From NCBI GenBank assembly GCA_027293415.1, contig JAPUFX010000020.1:1-39712 (forward strand): 39,712 bases of DNA, in the 5' to 3' direction. The notes below the pieces were generated by a model. That model made no database searches. It saw nothing but the letters and a program-made list of their open reading frames with translations, and had not been told where the DNA came from. This document shows, piece by piece, positions 10,140 through 17,925 of this stretch (its first letter is position 1; each line of letters starts with the position of its first letter). The stretch comes from Candidatus Methylomirabilota bacterium. Its GTDB lineage: Bacteria > Methylomirabilota > Methylomirabilia > Methylomirabilales > CSP1-5. A program made the translations under genes and the position numbers.

Positions 10140-10196
10140 TAATAAGGTCTCCCAACCGTCCCCCCAACCCCGGCAAATCGCCTCATTTTTCCTTTT

Positions 10197-13100
10197 TCAC
10201 CGTGATACAACGCGAAGCGTTGCCAAACGATTCACGATCAAGATCACGTTACCGTTCAACGGCTGATCACCGACGATATAGGGCAGCTCTTCGCGGAATG
10301 TTCCCCACACCTTCCCACCACGATGCCCCGCTGCGATGGCGGCAAGCGTGACAAGATCATCCCCCTGAATTTGGTGAGCAAATATAGCCTCCAACAGCGC
10401 CGTATCCGTCTGTGGCGACGGTGTAAACAGGGCTGCTGCGAGCACGCGCGCGGTCGCCAGGCGTGAGATGCTGTTTTGCTTTGCCAGCAAGCGCTTTGCG
10501 TCAGCGAGGGTGACTGCCACATTTTTGTCGATATCGGCGTTGAGAGCCTTCCCATTCTCAAGCGAGAGGACCGAGTAGAGTGCGCTGAGGTAGGGACCTG
10601 GACCGTCTGGTCTCTTCTTCAGCGTCTTGATGGCGGGAGCAAACTGCTTCTTTACGACCGCAAGCACATTTTCAGCGAGCATGCGGAGTTCTTTGTTTTT
10701 CGAATGTGTTCGTGCCGCCTCGCTGATGATCCACGCGGACCGCATAGTGACCCAGCTGTTCGCCCCTTCAACGATCTTTGTGATGCTTGGGCTCCCCCAA
10801 GCAACGTGAAGCTCGATCAGTGCCTCATCGTCTATCCGCCCTCGATAGGCACTTGCAAGAAGCTGCCATGAGAAGGTGTCTAGGGCGGTGAGGATCCGCC
10901 GTCGTTCATAGGCCGCCATTCGCTTCTTGCGATCCTCAGAGCGTTCGGCCCATCGCATCGAGACTTCCTTTTGCAGACGGCGAAGCGTCTGGAGTTGCTT
11001 GTGCGATGGTTGGAATCCCCTGGTATTCGTCAGATCCCATTTTGGGTCTCTTAGCGCATTGAGAAACGCCGCAACTCTGCCATGAATTTCCTTGTCTCCA
11101 TAGACAAGGAGATGTGCGGGATCGATGAGCACGGCGGATCCTGGGCTCAGCCCAGACTCTCCCTTTTGGTTGATGACGATCCGGATGGCGTTGAGGAATT
11201 TCTTGACAGCTCGTACGGCTATTTCGTTCCGGACTGTATTGGGAATTTCTTTCTCTGAGGGTCTCGCGAGGTCGCCGACGACATAGACCCAAGCAGATGT
11301 TCCTGGCAGACGTCGCGATGTGCCCACCGTGATCGTATTTTTCTTGTCGATTCGCCAGGTCAGATGCGCTGGCGTGAGAAGCCAATCGAGTGCCTGGGCG
11401 ACGGTAGTCCGACGAAGATCGAGGTATGTTACCCGGATCTCAGAGACGTTCAGCATTTCCGCGGCATCAGCCAGGCTCCCGGGTAGAATTTCTACCTTGA
11501 AGCCGGCGCCCCTCGCTATCGCCTGGATCGCGTCCTCAAGCGATTGATCTCGGATCACCAGATCGAGTCGCTTGGCAAGACCCGGAGTACGTTGTGCTCG
11601 ATTTTTGGCAATTTCTTCCATCAGTGTTCGAATTGCCCCTGCCGCAGCACCGGCCGTGCCGTCGTCGCTCCAGGGGCTGACGGAGAGGAACCCGGCTTCG
11701 AGCACCAGTGCATGCTGAAACCGGAAGAGGGCAGGTTCGAGTTTGCCCTTCTTGTGAAGTTCTTGTGATCCTGCGAGGACCTTCTTTGCCTCTTCGTGGC
11801 GCATCTGAGCCCAGTTTCCAAAGAGGGGGGCGGTCATACGACGAGAGATGTCTCTATCTTCGAGTTGTGCTTCCTTGGGTGAGGCGAAACGCTGTACGTT
11901 CTTGGCTTCGCTCATGCTGAACAAGCCACCCCCACCGGCAAAACTCGAGGCAGCGGCCTCCCTACGCATCTGGTACGGCCTTCCCGTCGCCATCTTCCTG
12001 GCAGACTGAGCCGCTGGTGCATTCAGTTGACCACGTCCCCTGTGCTGTGTCGCAGTCCGATATCCCTTTCGTCTCATAGTTGGCACGGCCTTGTACGGCA
12101 TGGGATGGTCGAGCCGGTCCTGGGCGATCGATTCTTCCTCGCCGAGCGGTCCAAAAACACCCTCGAAACTGACGCCTTCGGGCAGGGGGACAGGAATAAC
12201 CATCCGCCGGGGCGGAATCAGCTCCTCACCGATCTGGGGGACTTCGCTTTGGTCCACGGCGACGAAACTGGTGTATTGCGTCATGAGGCGATAATCGAGC
12301 GCGATCCGGGTAATCTCCTGTACCACTTCAGGCGTGTCGCCATAGAACATCTGGGAGGACAGGTCTGCGATCTTGTTTCGGGCCCATACCTTGGACAGGA
12401 CGCCGTGCTCTCGTTCCTCGGACGGCAGAGTCACATCGAGGGCGTAAGAGATCGGTTCGCCCTCCGCCAGTCCCGAGAGTTCGATCGTGGTACTTCCGCC
12501 GTCCCCGTAGCGGCCAAACAATATGACCGGTCGGCCGGCCCACAATTCGGGAATTTTCCGGGGATAGGTCTCGTACACGGAAAGTCCGTTCCAGTCGATC
12601 TGGATCTCTGCCAGTTGAGCGCGGTGGATGCGTTCGGCGATTTGCGTGACGAGTTCCGTCGGGTCAGTGCGTAATTCGATGACAGCGGACATGCCTCCAC
12701 CCACCTTGGCGACCCCGTCGAGGAGGAAGCGGTTTGGCGACGAGCCGATGCCGAGGACCCAGAACCGGATCCGATCCCCGGCACGTCTGCCCACCTCCTC
12801 TATGATTTGGGCCTCGTTACCGATAAAGCCGTCGGTGAGCATCACGACGATCCGAACCCGCTCGGGATCAAGCGGCTCGCTTAAGACCATTTTGATTCCT
12901 TTGAGCATCTCGGTCCCGCCCCCACCGCGGATCCCCTCGGTGAAGTTGAGAGCGCGTGCAACGTTCTCCGCCGTCGCAGGGACGGGATCCCTAAACAGTT
13001 TGGTCGCTCGACTAGCAAAGGTGACAACCTGAATCGTGTCGCCCGCCTTGCTCAGTCTGAAAAACTGCCGCATCGTCTCTTGAACCTTTTGCGTCGGCGC

Positions 13101-14186
13101 GCCACTCATCGAACCGGACACGTCGATGAGAAACACGATCTCGCGCGGAGGCGCCTCGGCGAGTTGCTCATCGGTCTTTGGCTGGATCATGAGCAGAAAA
13201 TAGCCCTGACCGGGGCCCTTGGAATGGGCCAACAAAGCCATCTCCGGCTTTTCCCCGACGACGGCGTATTTCATGACGAAATCTTTGTTCGGCACAGAGT
13301 CGGCGGGTGAGAGGGCTGCGACGGCGCGGGATTCATTGATCCGGTCTAGGCTCGCCTGGTGATTGACGATTTTGATGTCCTGAATTGGTACCCCGGCGTC
13401 AAGTCGAACGGAAAGACTGATATCATGACCGGTCCGGTATCCGGGCTTGAGCACGGGCGGTGTGATCCGAGATGCATCCTTGACTCTGTCGGTATCCGGT
13501 GACCAGCCGGTGCCTTTTGGATCAGGTCCCTCTGTCGGTCCTTTCACTGTCCCGACCTTGCCTTTCAGTTCGTCCGGCAAGTCAGGTTTTTTGGAGATAG
13601 GAGCACCGGGAATGTAGCGCGGACCCACAACCATGGGAAAATGAAACTCGTATGTGCCCATGTCGTACTTGAGGACATCGACGTACGAGATCTCGATGAC
13701 GATTTCCTGGTGCGGCTTGATGTTGCTGACCGATTGCGTGAAGATGTTCGGCCGTTCTTGCTCGAGGAGACTCGCCGTAAGGCCTTGCGTGAGTGCCTGC
13801 TCGTAAATCGCGCGTGCTTCAGTGCGGCGTTTGATCACGCCGACGATCCGGCGATCACCGATGACCATGGTCATATCGTCCACGGCCGCGGTATGCGGTA
13901 ACGGAAAGACATAGACCGCCTCGATCTTTTCATCGTATGGATTGAAGAACGTTTGTGTGACTTTTACACGGGCAATAAAACCAGAGATGTCCGCCTGGAC
14001 ATCCGTGTGTCGAAGGGGAATTTCGACAACGCCATGAGCCGTTTCGACGCGTAGAGCTCCCTGCGTGATGTCCTGTTCAATGGGGTCGACTTTAGGCTGT
14101 TCAGCCTTGGCCTGACCGGAGGCTGTCCCGCTGACTACGAACGCCGCGATGAGCACGGCGAGGAGCGAAAGATTCAGTTTTTTCAC
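10197..14186 (-). CDS. Large exported VIT/von Willebrand factor A protein with a C-terminal secretin-like STN domain
   Basis: A 1329-residue protein from the GTG at 14186, preceded by AAGGGCGG; a TTG at 14252 would put 22 residues before the signal peptide (KKLNLSLLAVLIAAFVVSG). In order I see a VIT domain (about 45-185: VTQTFFNPYDEKIEAVYVFP and ALTQGLTASLLEQERPNIFT) and a vWA domain (about 349-525). The vWA domain has an intact metal site DVSGS (D355, S357, S359) and LTDG (D452). A G/S-rich linker follows, then a segment about 872-963 resembling the STN domain of secretins and TonB receptors (RLDLVIRDQSLEDAIQAIAR, VAQALDWLLTPAHLTWRI). The helical C-terminal third is unrecognised. VIT-vWA proteins are surface or periplasmic adhesion or complex-assembly factors; the role here is unknown. 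It converges with cpoB. Confidence 0.85.
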   Translation of the reverse strand: MKKLNLSLLAVLIAAFVVSGTASGQAKAEQPKVDPIEQDITQGALRVETAHGVVEIPLRHTDVQADISGFIARVKVTQTFFNPYDEKIEAVYVFPLPHTAAVDDMTMVIGDRRIVGVIKRRTEARAIYEQALTQGLTASLLEQERPNIFTQSVSNIKPHQEIVIEISYVDVLKYDMGTYEFHFPMVVGPRYIPGAPISKKPDLPDELKGKVGTVKGPTEGPDPKGTGWSPDTDRVKDASRITPPVLKPGYRTGHDISLSVRLDAGVPIQDIKIVNHQASLDRINESRAVAALSPADSVPNKDFVMKYAVVGEKPEMALLAHSKGPGQGYFLLMIQPKTDEQLAEAPPREIVFLIDVSGSMSGAPTQKVQETMRQFFRLSKAGDTIQVVTFASRATKLFRDPVPATAENVARALNFTEGIRGGGGTEMLKGIKMVLSEPLDPERVRIVVMLTDGFIGNEAQIIEEVGRRAGDRIRFWVLGIGSSPNRFLLDGVAKVGGGMSAVIELRTDPTELVTQIAERIHRAQLAEIQIDWNGLSVYETYPRKIPELWAGRPVILFGRYGDGGSTTIELSGLAEGEPISYALDVTLPSEEREHGVLSKVWARNKIADLSSQMFYGDTPEVVQEITRIALDYRLMTQYTSFVAVDQSEVPQIGEELIPPRRMVIPVPLPEGVSFEGVFGPLGEEESIAQDRLDHPMPYKAVPTMRRKGYRTATQHRGRGQLNAPAAQSARKMATGRPYQMRREAAASSFAGGGGLFSMSEAKNVQRFASPKEAQLEDRDISRRMTAPLFGNWAQMRHEEAKKVLAGSQELHKKGKLEPALFRFQHALVLEAGFLSVSPWSDDGTAGAAAGAIRTLMEEIAKNRAQRTPGLAKRLDLVIRDQSLEDAIQAIARGAGFKVEILPGSLADAAEMLNVSEIRVTYLDLRRTTVAQALDWLLTPAHLTWRIDKKNTITVGTSRRLPGTSAWVYVVGDLARPSEKEIPNTVRNEIAVRAVKKFLNAIRIVINQKGESGLSPGSAVLIDPAHLLVYGDKEIHGRVAAFLNALRDPKWDLTNTRGFQPSHKQLQTLRRLQKEVSMRWAERSEDRKKRMAAYERRRILTALDTFSWQLLASAYRGRIDDEALIELHVAWGSPSITKIVEGANSWVTMRSAWIISEAARTHSKNKELRMLAENVLAVVKKQFAPAIKTLKKRPDGPGPYLSALYSVLSLENGKALNADIDKNVAVTLADAKRLLAKQNSISRLATARVLAAALFTPSPQTDTALLEAIFAHQIQGDDLVTLAAIAAGHRGGKVWGTFREELPYIVGDQPLNGNVILIVNRLATLRVVSR

Positions 14187-14511
14187 GGCCCGCCCTTCTA
14201 GAGAGTTTAAGGTCCTAGATACCTTGTGATCGTCAATTTTTCGGGTCTTCAACCAGCTTAGACAGCCGAATCGAGAGAAAGTTCCAGGCAGAAAATAGGA
14301 GAATGCGAAATCTTCTGGAGGAGTAGCAACAGTGCTTACTATCGGGCGGGGTACTGGAGGGACTGGGACCTAGGAAGGCGAGGGTTAGCTGTTCCTATCG
14401 GTAGTCGGTGGCCTCGGTAAAAAAGGTCTGCCAGACTGAGGTGGGTTGCGGAGATGTTTTCCTCATGAATCTCTGAGACCGTGTGGGAGAGAACGGTAGG
14501 AGAGAGGGTGG
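14187..14511. other. Spacer upstream of the VIT/vWA gene
   Basis: About 325 bases. I find no protein-like frame and no repeat of the types used elsewhere. A short GTCTGGCAGAC palindrome followed on the minus strand by a T-run (around 14425-14440) might weakly terminate the gene ending at 14512, but its stem is only four to five base pairs. No clear promoter for the VIT/vWA gene is visible. Confidence 0.4.
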
Positions 14512-14844
14512 CTACTGGGGAAGGGGGGTCCAGGCCTCGGCGGCCGCGTCCAGGTTAAGCCAACGGAGCAGCGTGTGAAGAACAAGGAGACGCCCCTCGT
14601 ACTCGTACTGGAGCCTCGAGAAACTCTCCTCCTTATTATCAGCCTTTCGGATCGGGGCGGTGACACAGACTTTTCCCTTCGCATGCCCGTCCGTCCCCTT
14701 GTGAATCATCTGAGGACTGTTCACGTAGTCGAATTCGAGAAGTTCGAGTGCAGGATAGGCACACTGCGCAGCGGCCCAGGTGGCTGTCCCCAAGACGACC
14801 ACGAAGGCCACCACGAAAAACAGGATGCCTCTAAGGCCTCTCAC
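14512..14844 (-). CDS. Small exported protein of unknown function
   Basis: From the GTG at 14844, with GGAG six bases upstream, this is a 110-residue protein. A clear signal peptide (GLRGILFFVVAFVVVLGTA, cleavage likely after TWAAA) is followed by a mature part of about 84 residues with two cysteines and no recognisable family. In-frame starts at 14859 (ATG) and 14886 (GTG) exist but place polar residues before the signal. It begins within 50 bases of the end of the lyase/hydratase fusion gene, on the same strand, so it is probably in the same transcript. A periplasmic accessory or unrelated passenger are both possible. Confidence 0.6.
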   Translation of the reverse strand: MRGLRGILFFVVAFVVVLGTATWAAAQCAYPALELLEFDYVNSPQMIHKGTDGHAKGKVCVTAPIRKADNKEESFSRLQYEYEGRLLVLHTLLRWLNLDAAAEAWTPLPQ

Positions 14845-14889
14845 CCGTTGCTCCGCCATAAGCTGAACCGATACAGTGCGTTGCACCGC

Positions 14890-17800
14890 TTAAGATGCCG
14901 GCTGCTGCTCCTCCATCAGTTTGACCACCTGTCCCTTAAGAACGTCTCCGCCGCGCTGATTATTTACTGCAATATCGATCGGGACAATCGGGGTTCCTTT
15001 CCCCTTTTGGGAGCGCCGGATCTGGTCCGGCGGCGGCGCCGTAGCCGAGAGACTGAGCTGGTCTCCGGCCTCGATGGGAAGGCCGAAATGAGACACCCTT
15101 ACCGTGAGGAGGAGGTGGCCGGGCGAGCTTTCGGCCGAGGTCATGGCCATTGTTCCCAGGGCGAGCAGGGTGCTCACCTGGTGAGGGTAGAGGGGGCCAA
15201 AGAGGGCCCGGGTGGCTTTTACGAGCTCGACGTCTATCGCCTTGGTGAAGCTCTGCTGGCGGGGACTTGACGGGTTGGTAAAGTCGTAAACCACTGACGG
15301 AACGGAGGGGGTCACATCCTGGGCCCATTGCCGGACCCAGGGTAGCTCATCAGGGGATACGGATAGGAGGTCTCCAGACTTCTCGGGTCGCAAGGTGGCC
15401 GTCCCCTCGCAAACGACCTTCCCCTCCTGGTTGACCGCGCTCAGCCGGAGTGCCGCCCATCCTCCCTCAAAGACTTCCTGTACCTCGGCCAGGGGGATGA
15501 TGGTGTCCCCGAAGTAGACCGGGGCCCGGAAGTGCGCCTCGAGCGACTCGAGGCCATAGGCAGGCACGACGCGGCCAAGGCCTGCCAGCATGCTGCTCAA
15601 CGTGAAGAGTCCGTGAGCCACTAGTCTTTGAAACCGGGACTTCTCTGCATACGCCCGGTCCAGATGGTAGCGGTTCCGATCCCCAGAAGTCTTGGCGAAT
15701 GCTTGCACCATCCAAGCACTCACCGAAACGGCATCTCCCTGCAACTTCTCCCCCGGGAAGACCGCCTCGCCGACCTGCTCCATCCCACCTGGTCTGAGCG
15801 CGAGGAGCAGCCGGTCCCGGGCTGTCACGTAGCGTTCCGGCTCGGTGTCGGTAAGCTGTCCTGCCTTGAGCGCCCGCTCCAATTGCCGGTAATAGATGCG
15901 GGCGGTTGCCGCATCCACGAGCTCGGGTTGGCCGGTCACCGGGTCGTTGTACGCAACCGCGCCCAGGTTCCGCTCTTGGTCGGCGGTGGCGTAAAGTTCC
16001 AGGATCTCGAGGGCCCGCTCCACGGAGTTGATCCATCGCGCCCTGAACGCTTCACCCCCCGGTCCTTTTGGCTGGACGGGTTGCTCGCCGGCTCGGGGGG
16101 GATTCATCACGGTATTGACGCGCTCGACCTGATCCGGTGTGACTATTTTCCCGTGAAAACCGAGATTGGCGGAAAAGAGGGTCTCCTCTTCCAGGTGTGC
16201 GGCGTCACTCATCGCATCCACGGCGTCGATATCCGCCGCGGCCGTGGCAGCCACCAGCGCTGACCGGTAGTAGTAATATCCTTTGGTCTTTGGATCGTCC
16301 AAGTCCTCCTTCGGTTGCACGCCCTTGAGGTCGAGGAGGATCCACATCATCCGTCGGCTCGCCGTCGCGACGGCATAGGCCTCACGCTCGATGATCTCAG
16401 GCTGACTGATCCGCGCCCCTAAGGAGATGGAGCCGACTGGGAGGCCGACCTCCCGCTCGGATCCGGTGAGGAGACCGGCGGCATGCCGGACAGCGCGTGG
16501 ATGGTCGACGGCGGGCAGGATAAGGGCCTGGACCCGTTCCTTGAAAAGCTGGAGCAGTTGCTGAAGTTCTGTAACCGCCTCGGACCTCCCGAGGTCCATC
16601 TGAAGGGCCAACACCTGGGCGGGGCGAACCGCCTCTCGACACAGCTGCGCCAGCTTGCGCTGGGGCTCCTGCCCGTTAGATCCGGAGATGCCTTCGACGT
16701 CAATGATCACCATATCGGCAGGTGAGGCGAGGACAGCCCGCAGTCCGTCGAGATCGTGGCCCGCGACGGTAACCACCGATCGGCAGAGGGTCACGGGACG
16801 AGGGACGAAGACGAGGGGGGGGAGGATCGGTTTCTCCTCTTGCGCCAGTCGCTTGAGCTGCTCAAGGTTGAAAGGGGAAATTTCGGGGAAGGCGATACGC
16901 TTCCGGGGGATCGGGGGAAATTCGGCAGCCCGCCTGGCGATGCCTTCAACATGCGCGGGATGGACACTCCACTTGCGATGGATCCCGAGGGCAATGGCCC
17001 GGACGGTGTCCACTTCGGTGTCATCCGCATTCAGCTTCACGGTGATTCCCGTCCCGGCCGCTTTTCCCGTAGCCCGGGAGGCCTCCACGAGTTTGAGGAG
17101 CGGGTACCGCATATAGGTGTACTGCTCTTGCTGGACCACGCTGCGCCCCCCGGTGGCCGCCGTGTAGTCGACGACACCCAGGTTTGCCTCTTCCACGTCG
17201 GGGGCCACGGCGAGGATCTCTTCCGCGGTCAGGATGGCTCCGGGCAGCTCAGTGAGGACAAAGACCCTGTGTCTCCCTGTCACCCAGCCCCGTTCCTGCT
17301 GCAGGGCCCGGAGGATCTGGACGGCGACCCGTACGTCATCCGGCCCCTCGATTTTCGGCAAATAAATCCCTCCGATGAGGTCGCCAATTTCCCGGACTAC
17401 CTCAATGTAGTCCCCGGCCGCCCACTTGGTGCGGAGATTGTTCGGCCGGATCAGGACCATCTGTTCTTTGGGGAACCGGCATTCCGGCTTGATCACGAAG
17501 TGTGCCCCCTCCCGGATGAATTGCTGCTCGAGCTGTTCCGCCTTGCCAGCCGGCAGCGCGTTGGCCTTGAGAAATTCCAGCTCTTCTTCCGTCAAGGGTA
17601 GCCCCCGATGGGCCCGGACCAGGAGAGTCAGGACGGTGCGGGCGACGTGCTTGCGGGTGGTGGCCACCGCATCTTCGAGGTCGAGGAGGAGGATATGAGC
17701 CTGGGACTGGGCCGCCTTCGTCATGAAATACCAGTTGTCTCCGGGGAAGACGTGCTCGATCGGTCGGGGGGCGTATTCCCAGGCGAGCTGCCGGGTTGCC

Positions 17801-17925
17801 GCCTCGCGGGTCGCAGCGGGGTCAACCCGCTTCATGGCTTCCCACCGCTCAGCGACGTCTGTCTCGGCCTGTGCCATATCGCCCCCAAAAGCCGTCACCA
17901 CCTCGCTTAAGGCTCGATCATCCAT
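14890..17925 (-). CDS. Fusion of two HpcH/CitE-type CoA-ester lyase domains with a MaoC-like hydratase
   Basis: A 1011-residue protein; the ATG at 17925 has GGGAGG eight bases upstream. Domain 1 (about 50-345) keeps the citrate/malyl-CoA lyase motifs: LLLDLEDAV (D82, E84, D85), IYLPKIE (189-193), the metal-ligand glutamate of LTELPGA (E226), VVDYTAATG (D253) and WSVHPAHVEGI (H322). Domain 2 (about 370-610) has the same fold by sequence, ending NLGFHGKIVTPDQVERVN, but its motifs are altered (IIDVEG for the LDLED site, LPAVD for LPKIE), so it may be inactive. A MaoC hot-dog domain (about 720-845) keeps the dyad D749-x-N-x-x-H754. The last part (about 870-1005) looks like a second, degenerate hot-dog. 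The combination suggests beta-methylmalyl-, malyl- or citramalyl-CoA cleavage linked to hydration of a mesaconyl-CoA-type enoyl-CoA. The substrate is inferred. Confidence 0.85.
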   Translation of the reverse strand: MDDRALSEVVTAFGGDMAQAETDVAERWEAMKRVDPAATREAATRQLAWEYAPRPIEHVFPGDNWYFMTKAAQSQAHILLLDLEDAVATTRKHVARTVLTLLVRAHRGLPLTEEELEFLKANALPAGKAEQLEQQFIREGAHFVIKPECRFPKEQMVLIRPNNLRTKWAAGDYIEVVREIGDLIGGIYLPKIEGPDDVRVAVQILRALQQERGWVTGRHRVFVLTELPGAILTAEEILAVAPDVEEANLGVVDYTAATGGRSVVQQEQYTYMRYPLLKLVEASRATGKAAGTGITVKLNADDTEVDTVRAIALGIHRKWSVHPAHVEGIARRAAEFPPIPRKRIAFPEISPFNLEQLKRLAQEEKPILPPLVFVPRPVTLCRSVVTVAGHDLDGLRAVLASPADMVIIDVEGISGSNGQEPQRKLAQLCREAVRPAQVLALQMDLGRSEAVTELQQLLQLFKERVQALILPAVDHPRAVRHAAGLLTGSEREVGLPVGSISLGARISQPEIIEREAYAVATASRRMMWILLDLKGVQPKEDLDDPKTKGYYYYRSALVAATAAADIDAVDAMSDAAHLEEETLFSANLGFHGKIVTPDQVERVNTVMNPPRAGEQPVQPKGPGGEAFRARWINSVERALEILELYATADQERNLGAVAYNDPVTGQPELVDAATARIYYRQLERALKAGQLTDTEPERYVTARDRLLLALRPGGMEQVGEAVFPGEKLQGDAVSVSAWMVQAFAKTSGDRNRYHLDRAYAEKSRFQRLVAHGLFTLSSMLAGLGRVVPAYGLESLEAHFRAPVYFGDTIIPLAEVQEVFEGGWAALRLSAVNQEGKVVCEGTATLRPEKSGDLLSVSPDELPWVRQWAQDVTPSVPSVVYDFTNPSSPRQQSFTKAIDVELVKATRALFGPLYPHQVSTLLALGTMAMTSAESSPGHLLLTVRVSHFGLPIEAGDQLSLSATAPPPDQIRRSQKGKGTPIVPIDIAVNNQRGGDVLKGQVVKLMEEQQPAS

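Follow-up and report, generated by a model that had tools for sequence, protein, structure and literature searches.

A stretch of 39,712 nucleotides from a Candidatus Methylomirabilota bacterium (contig JAPUFX010000020.1), referred to here as the window, carries a gene on its minus strand (14890..17925 (-)) in which lyase and MaoC parts are fused in one protein of 1011 amino acids. The product starts with a helical segment, which is followed by barrel 1 (lyase), barrel 2 (lyase-like), a lid, and two hot-dogs, the first of the MaoC type. The function can reasonably be assigned from context and residues: it is probably a bifunctional enzyme of the ethylmalonyl-coenzyme A (CoA) pathway, a route of carbon assimilation, and would convert mesaconyl-C1-CoA to beta-methylmalyl-CoA and the latter to propionyl-CoA and glyoxylate. 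The reaction, its direction, and the handover of the intermediate are all predictions. The chemistry is known, and the architecture is apparently undescribed. In the titles and abstracts of the openly licensed literature we found no described enzyme with this domain order, and a first-pass annotation of the same DNA had known of none either.

Architecture and active sites of the fusion protein

The open reading frame (ORF) runs in a single frame of 1011 codons from an ATG start (14890-17925 (-)). Six further genomes of this order have it at full length and without stop: 5 of the same genus (78–97% identity) and 1 of another family (66%). In the pairs with measurable divergence, the ratio of nonsynonymous to synonymous substitution rates (dN/dS) was ~0.05–0.3 across all domains. 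Considering this uninterrupted recurrence in 6 genomes at 66–97% and the low dN/dS, the ORF is not a product of chance. An assembly artefact or a frameshift was ruled out by the presence of this ORF at full length in separate genomes, and a plasmid origin was discarded, as no plasmid record spans the fusion.

Pfam recognised HpcH_HpaI (8.1e-24, in three stretches) and MaoC (2e-13) in the 1011-residue protein. An AlphaFold2 model was built from an alignment of 17 rows (predicted local distance difference test, pLDDT, 85; predicted template modelling score, pTM, 0.83), and it shows, after the N-terminal helices, barrel 1 at residues 56-330, barrel 2 at 383-607, the lid at 635-687, the MaoC hot-dog at 727-847, and the further hot-dog at 890-1003. 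The best solved matches obtained with Foldseek include the malyl-CoA lyases of R. sphaeroides and M. extorquens as well as double hot-dog proteins, MeaC among them. The two lyase domains, the MaoC domain, and the second hot-dog-like tail that the first-pass annotation had described were confirmed by Pfam, hhalign, and the model. Its account of a four-part protein holds for these parts, and it overlooked the lid (residues about 622-712) and the N-terminal three-helix segment seen in the model (residues 1-55; 17761..17925 (-)). The latter is absent or unrecognisable in the NC10 homologues of 38% identity and in those of Elusimicrobiota.

Barrel 1, delimited by profile and model (residues 56-335; 16921..17760 (-)), is a CitE/HpcH-type lyase domain without a lid of its own. 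Profile comparison ranked the malyl-CoA lyases (5UGR, 1.9e-42; 4L9Y, 2.5e-37) over RipC (3QLL, 1.5e-22) and CitE. By alignment with Mcl1 of R. sphaeroides, R160 (17446..17448 (-)) is the equivalent of Arg76, while E226 (17248..17250 (-)) and D253 (17167..17169 (-)) are the equivalents of the metal ligands Glu141 and Asp168. Barrel 1 therefore combines the features taken to mark a malyl-CoA lyase: the HpcH/HpaI triosephosphate isomerase (TIM) barrel, the DLEDAV motif (D82/E84), and the Arg76, Glu141, and Asp168 equivalents. DLEDAV, R160, E226, and D253 are identical in the 13 of 13 aligned rows covering the barrel, and the motifs of the first domain are intact, as had been claimed, with the equivalents of the 4L9Y metal ligands kept.

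The MaoC hot-dog (residues 720-848; 15382..15768 (-)), detected by Pfam and in the model, bears the hydratase-2 motif D749-x-N-x-x-H754. Both residues lie exactly where they had been placed and are invariant in all aligned rows carrying MaoC. The nearest solved match of this half was the (R)-enoyl-CoA hydratase 5CPG (1.4e-24). The second hot-dog (residues 886-1005; 14911..15270 (-)) is predicted and has no catalytic motif; in the model, helix 914-933 lies against strands 890-896, 938-947, 956-962, 976-988, and 994-1003. Together they form a double hot-dog with a single hydratase-2 motif, like MeaC (8HGN) and the C. aurantiacus MaoC protein 4E3E. For Mch/MeaC and 4E3E the same reaction would be expected, but these are stand-alone proteins with a similarity of only E 0.27, and in the fusion it is the first hot-dog that is active, and this one resembles PhaJ. 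The nearest sequence kin of the MaoC half are the (R)-specific enoyl-CoA hydratases or PhaJ (5CPG, 1IQ6), which share the D-x-N-x-x-H motif; unlike the fusion, PhaJ is a stand-alone single hot-dog acting on another substrate.

The second barrel and the lid

Barrel 2 (residues 368-612; 16090..16824 (-)) is a homologue of barrel 1 according to hhalign (98.8%) and is predicted as a complete (beta/alpha)8 fold, with eight strand-helix units in the AlphaFold2 model and its active-site residues lost. Where the lyases have their catalytic Arg, the aligned rows have Q, E, or a gap; they vary at the Glu position, and nothing in barrel 2 aligned with the Asp that is a metal ligand in 4L9Y, in keeping with the altered active-site motifs reported at first pass. 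In Elusimicrobiota the model reduces barrel 2 to a few strands, with lid, hairpin, and Asp retained. Among the informative pairs, dN/dS was ~0.05–0.14 for barrel 1 and lid and 0.15–0.23 for barrel 2, the former being the more constrained. On this comparison of sequences, barrel 2 appears to be a pseudo-lyase, a noncatalytic helper that gives the other copy its active-site lid.

Neither the alignment nor the model showed a lid (two helices and a hairpin) directly C-terminal to barrel 1. The sole such element comes after barrel 2 (residues about 622-712; 15790..16062 (-)) and is formed, like the lids of malyl-CoA lyases, by two helices joined by a hairpin (helix 635-652, beta-hairpin 656-660/667-671, and helix 672-687). 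Lid and barrel 1 are the most conserved parts of the protein. At the end of the hairpin stands D671 (15913..15915 (-)), an invariant Asp in all aligned lids, which by anatomy and motif would be the equivalent of Asp299 of Mcl1 and Asp318 of Chloroflexus MCL. It has been described that the C-terminal lid of one malyl-CoA lyase monomer, composed of two helices and a beta-hairpin, covers the active site of the neighbour and supplies Asp299 (Chloroflexus Asp318), and that activity needs the trimer (PMC3832036).

Taking into account that the fusion has a lid on barrel 2 only and that lids are intersubunit elements in the solved lyases, the most economical reading is that barrel 2 and its lid replace the neighbouring subunit. 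The lid would close over barrel 1, and by analogy the fusion resembles the intersubunit lid contact of the lyases, made asymmetric and brought inside one chain. The earlier suggestion that the second domain acts as a structural partner in place of a homo-oligomer contact gains support from this lid anatomy, with barrel 1 devoid of a lid and barrel 2 provided with one, and from the lid swap of the solved enzymes (PMC3832036). If this is true, a symmetric lid-swapped oligomer has become one asymmetric chain in which a dead partner goes on providing a catalytic group.

Mcl1 (R. sphaeroides 4L9Y, M. extorquens 5UGR; PMC3832036) has in common with the fusion the barrel fold, the Arg/Glu/Asp site, and a helix-hairpin-helix lid with a putatively equivalent Asp. 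However, malyl-CoA lyases are homo-hexamers of identical single-barrel subunits, whereas the fusion has two unequal barrels per chain, the intact site on the first only, the lid on the second only, and a hydratase attached. Malate synthases A and G also have barrel and lid in one chain, but there one barrel is closed by its own lid (PMC3832036) and the thioester is also hydrolysed. We lean, on balance, towards the view that a duplication split one active site over two barrels of one chain, with metal and CoA at barrel 1 and the lid with the catalytic Asp on pseudo-barrel 2, and that this pair was fused to the hydratase of the preceding step. The fusion and its homologues in Elusimicrobiota and Omnitrophota would then mark a tendency to unite enzymes of the ethylmalonyl-CoA pathway in megaproteins.

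The chemistry could also be as proposed with the lid covering barrel 1 of another chain, by a domain swap in a dimer that works only as an oligomer. The known lyases are indeed trimers with intermolecular lids, but two barrels in one chain make the intrachain arrangement simple, and we regard the swap between chains as rather unlikely. It would change the geometry and leave the split of functions as it is.

Pathway context and alternative functions

Ccr, a mutase, and methylsuccinyl-CoA dehydrogenase (Mcd) catalyse steps of the ethylmalonyl-CoA pathway. In 2 genomes of Elusimicrobiota the homologue is one protein of 2162–2172 amino acids (L038:9989-16477 (+) and L143:7814-14332 (-)), in which barrel 1, a reduced barrel 2, and the lid are followed by a 3-hydroxyacyl-CoA dehydrogenase, a Ccr-like reductase, an epimerase-like domain, and a MaoC/hot-dog pair. 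A mutase gene lies 5′ of the megaprotein gene and an acyl-CoA dehydrogenase gene lies 3′; the best solved match of this dehydrogenase was the (2S)-methylsuccinyl-CoA dehydrogenase 8CIW, with 520 bits against 309 for the next. The locus holds most of the ethylmalonyl-CoA pathway. The Omnitrophota homologue is contained within an ORF of 2640 amino acids with a Ccr-like domain, and the two ORFs after it carry acyl-CoA dehydrogenases and a mutase; an acyl-CoA ligase and a carboxyltransferase are also encoded in the ORFs that follow. As to another family of NC10, one genome (G016) has a mutase gene that ends immediately 5′ of the fusion in the same orientation, and in a further genome (G023) Ccr, a FabH-like gene, the Mcd-like gene, and the first part of a mutase gene stand at the end of one contig and the fusion at the beginning of another. 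Considering that Ccr, mutase, and Mcd are found alongside, the steps left for the fusion are the hydration of mesaconyl-C1-CoA and the cleavage of beta-methylmalyl-CoA.

In the window genome, Ccr scored 542 bits against a curated cut-off of 378.55. The best solved match of an Mcd-like protein was 6ES9 (398 bits, next 352), and this protein has 47% identity to the Mcd-like protein of Elusimicrobiota. Its gene is followed by a mutase, a thiolase, and a class III polyhydroxyalkanoate (PHA) synthase (PhaC) in a cluster with a further ORF (L152:70-6165, G000:C126), which suggests that the ethylmalonyl-CoA pathway is connected with PHA. The fusion is the sole HpcH_HpaI protein of the window genome, where no isocitrate lyase was found over the cut-off. 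Across 35 genomes of the order, Ccr and/or an Mcd-like gene were present in 10 of the 10 carriers of the fusion or its split form and in 3 of the 25 others, counts that are not corrected for kinship. In another family of the class, Ccr over the cut-off and no fusion were seen in many genomes; thus the fusion is one solution among others. None of the titles and abstracts in the literature searched reported the ethylmalonyl-CoA pathway from NC10, Elusimicrobia, or Omnitrophota.

In the mechanism that we propose, the MaoC/double hot-dog half would hydrate mesaconyl-C1-CoA to beta-methylmalyl-CoA, and the intermediate would be passed from the hydratase half to the lyase half. At barrel 1, where E226 and D253 would bind Mg2+, it would then be cleaved to propionyl-CoA and glyoxylate, while barrel 2 and the lid with the invariant D671 would stand in for the neighbouring subunit at the barrel 1 site. 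The pairing of a malyl/methylmalyl-CoA lyase with a mesaconyl-CoA hydratase, put forward in the first-pass annotation, is well supported, and the fusions and neighbours of the homologues together with the co-occurrence narrow it to the ethylmalonyl-CoA pathway. Of the C4 or C5 substrate that it allowed, C5 is favoured. The direction it gave, from lyase to hydratase, has to be reversed, since hydration precedes cleavage in this pathway. If the assignment is correct, Methylomirabilota have the last two steps of the ethylmalonyl-CoA pathway, and so, judging from the fusions, do Elusimicrobiota and Omnitrophota. The protein would also be a natural candidate for a handover of beta-methylmalyl-CoA from hydratase to lyase, of interest to synthetic carbon assimilation.

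Several observations weigh against this assignment. NCBIfam models run on the whole protein put citE and RipC before malyl-CoA lyase, all of them far under cut-off. The MaoC half is closer in sequence to 5CPG (1.4e-24) than to the mesaconyl-CoA hydratase 8HGN (E 0.27), so that it has no clear membership by sequence in the Mch family. In 4L9Y the profile match of the lid ends short of Asp299, and with 3QLL it is below the threshold. The Mcd-like protein of the window genome does not have the N-terminal extension of the solved Mcd, and the mutase may be an ethylmalonyl-CoA or a methylmalonyl-CoA mutase; this genome has 3 mutases of the family, 1 of them beside the Mcd-like gene. Finally, in the window genome the fusion gene does not adjoin other pathway genes.

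The weak matches to the RipC and RipB models raise the question of itaconate or mesaconate degradation, where the MaoC half would hydrate itaconyl-CoA (or mesaconyl-C4-CoA) to citramalyl-CoA and the lyase would give acetyl-CoA and pyruvate. RipB (Ich) and RipC (Ccl) are likewise a MaoC hydratase and a CitE-like lyase of consecutive steps, but they are two proteins, act on citramalyl-CoA, have no pseudo-lyase, and have different pathway neighbours. Their scores were 69 bits against a cut-off of 375 for RipC and 15.8 against 340 for RipB, and barrel 1 fits malyl-CoA lyases far better than RipC. Moreover, homologues of the fusion stand in three phyla beside Ccr, mutase, and Mcd-like genes, which have no role in itaconate breakdown, and no itaconate CoA-transferase was present among the annotated neighbours, a genome-wide search not having been made. 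A role in itaconate degradation is thus improbable.

We give equally little credit to a malyl-CoA lyase of the serine cycle or the 3-hydroxypropionate type working on C4 malyl-CoA, with a MaoC half directed to a different enoyl-CoA, such as one of PHA metabolism. In its favour, the malyl-CoA lyases that have been characterised are bi- or trifunctional (PMC3832036), the MaoC half is similar to hydratases of the PhaJ type, and the Mcd-like/mutase cluster of the window genome includes PHA synthase and thiolase. On the other hand, the fusion itself and the co-occurrence with Ccr and Mcd indicate the C5 step, and a separate MaoC protein exists in the window genome (C135). A C4 role may exist beside the C5 role, which is compatible with the ethylmalonyl-CoA assignment, as the known lyases are bi- or trifunctional. 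That barrel 2 is a second active enzyme, such as a malyl-CoA thioesterase, and no scaffold is very unlikely: it has a full predicted barrel under purifying selection and keeps D532 in the NC10 fusions, but at the positions of the Arg, the Glu, and the metal-ligand Asp its residues have been lost or vary, the other homologues have N or A in place of D532, and the Elusimicrobiota barrel 2 is partly deleted while the lid stays.

Occurrence, split forms, and neighbouring genes

Other proteins with the lyase-lyase-MaoC order were searched for and found in Methylomirabilota and Omnitrophota. The named records with the fusion are 'Candidatus Methylomirabilis sp. MAG-BB-18' (97%) and NC10 bacterium CSP1-5 (78%), and remoter relatives are found in other NC10 genomes (38–39%) and in one Omnitrophota genome (46–47%). 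A survey of 95 genomes of the phylum showed the full fusion only in the genus of the window, 1 genome of a second family, and 2 of a third. A match of 3189 amino acids in another Omnitrophota genome (G410) was set aside; it has the lyase domain only, among unrelated domains.

Three members of the genus (G001, G002, and G003), 2 of them also with the full fusion, have a split form (L017:7820-9970 and 10171-11379; L016; L018). The pair has the reversed order, with a gene for lid, MaoC, and hot-dog followed by one for barrel 1, barrel 2, and lid; in G001 and G003 it lies partly at contig ends. Both halves carry the lid including D671 in G002. A tandem duplication of the fusion with loss of the outer parts would give such a pair, which offers a natural dissection of the fusion for experiments. 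The split MaoC half keeps its own lid with the D671 equivalent, though no lyase barrel is attached to it.

The Omnitrophota contig JAGOSC010000005.1 (L035/L144/L145) has four giant ORFs in a row, of 2640, 1727, 3472, and 2173 amino acids. Each has a signal-peptide-like leader, a shared N-terminal module, C-termini that are alike, and enzyme domains of CoA pathways; an export-like leader is odd for enzymes of cytosolic type. The further ORF of the PHA synthase cluster in the window genome has no family match and is PhaE-like by position.

Directly 3′ of the fusion gene in the window there is a small ORF (14512-14886 (-)) without Pfam match, and short ORFs with a secreted-looking start were seen at the equivalent place in related genomes (L028:677-1051, L020:5695-6135). 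Further along, 10197-14252 (-) encodes a protein of 1351 amino acids that has a VIT domain, a von Willebrand A domain, and a weak match to secretin-N, and this gene adjoins TolB- and YbgF-like genes.

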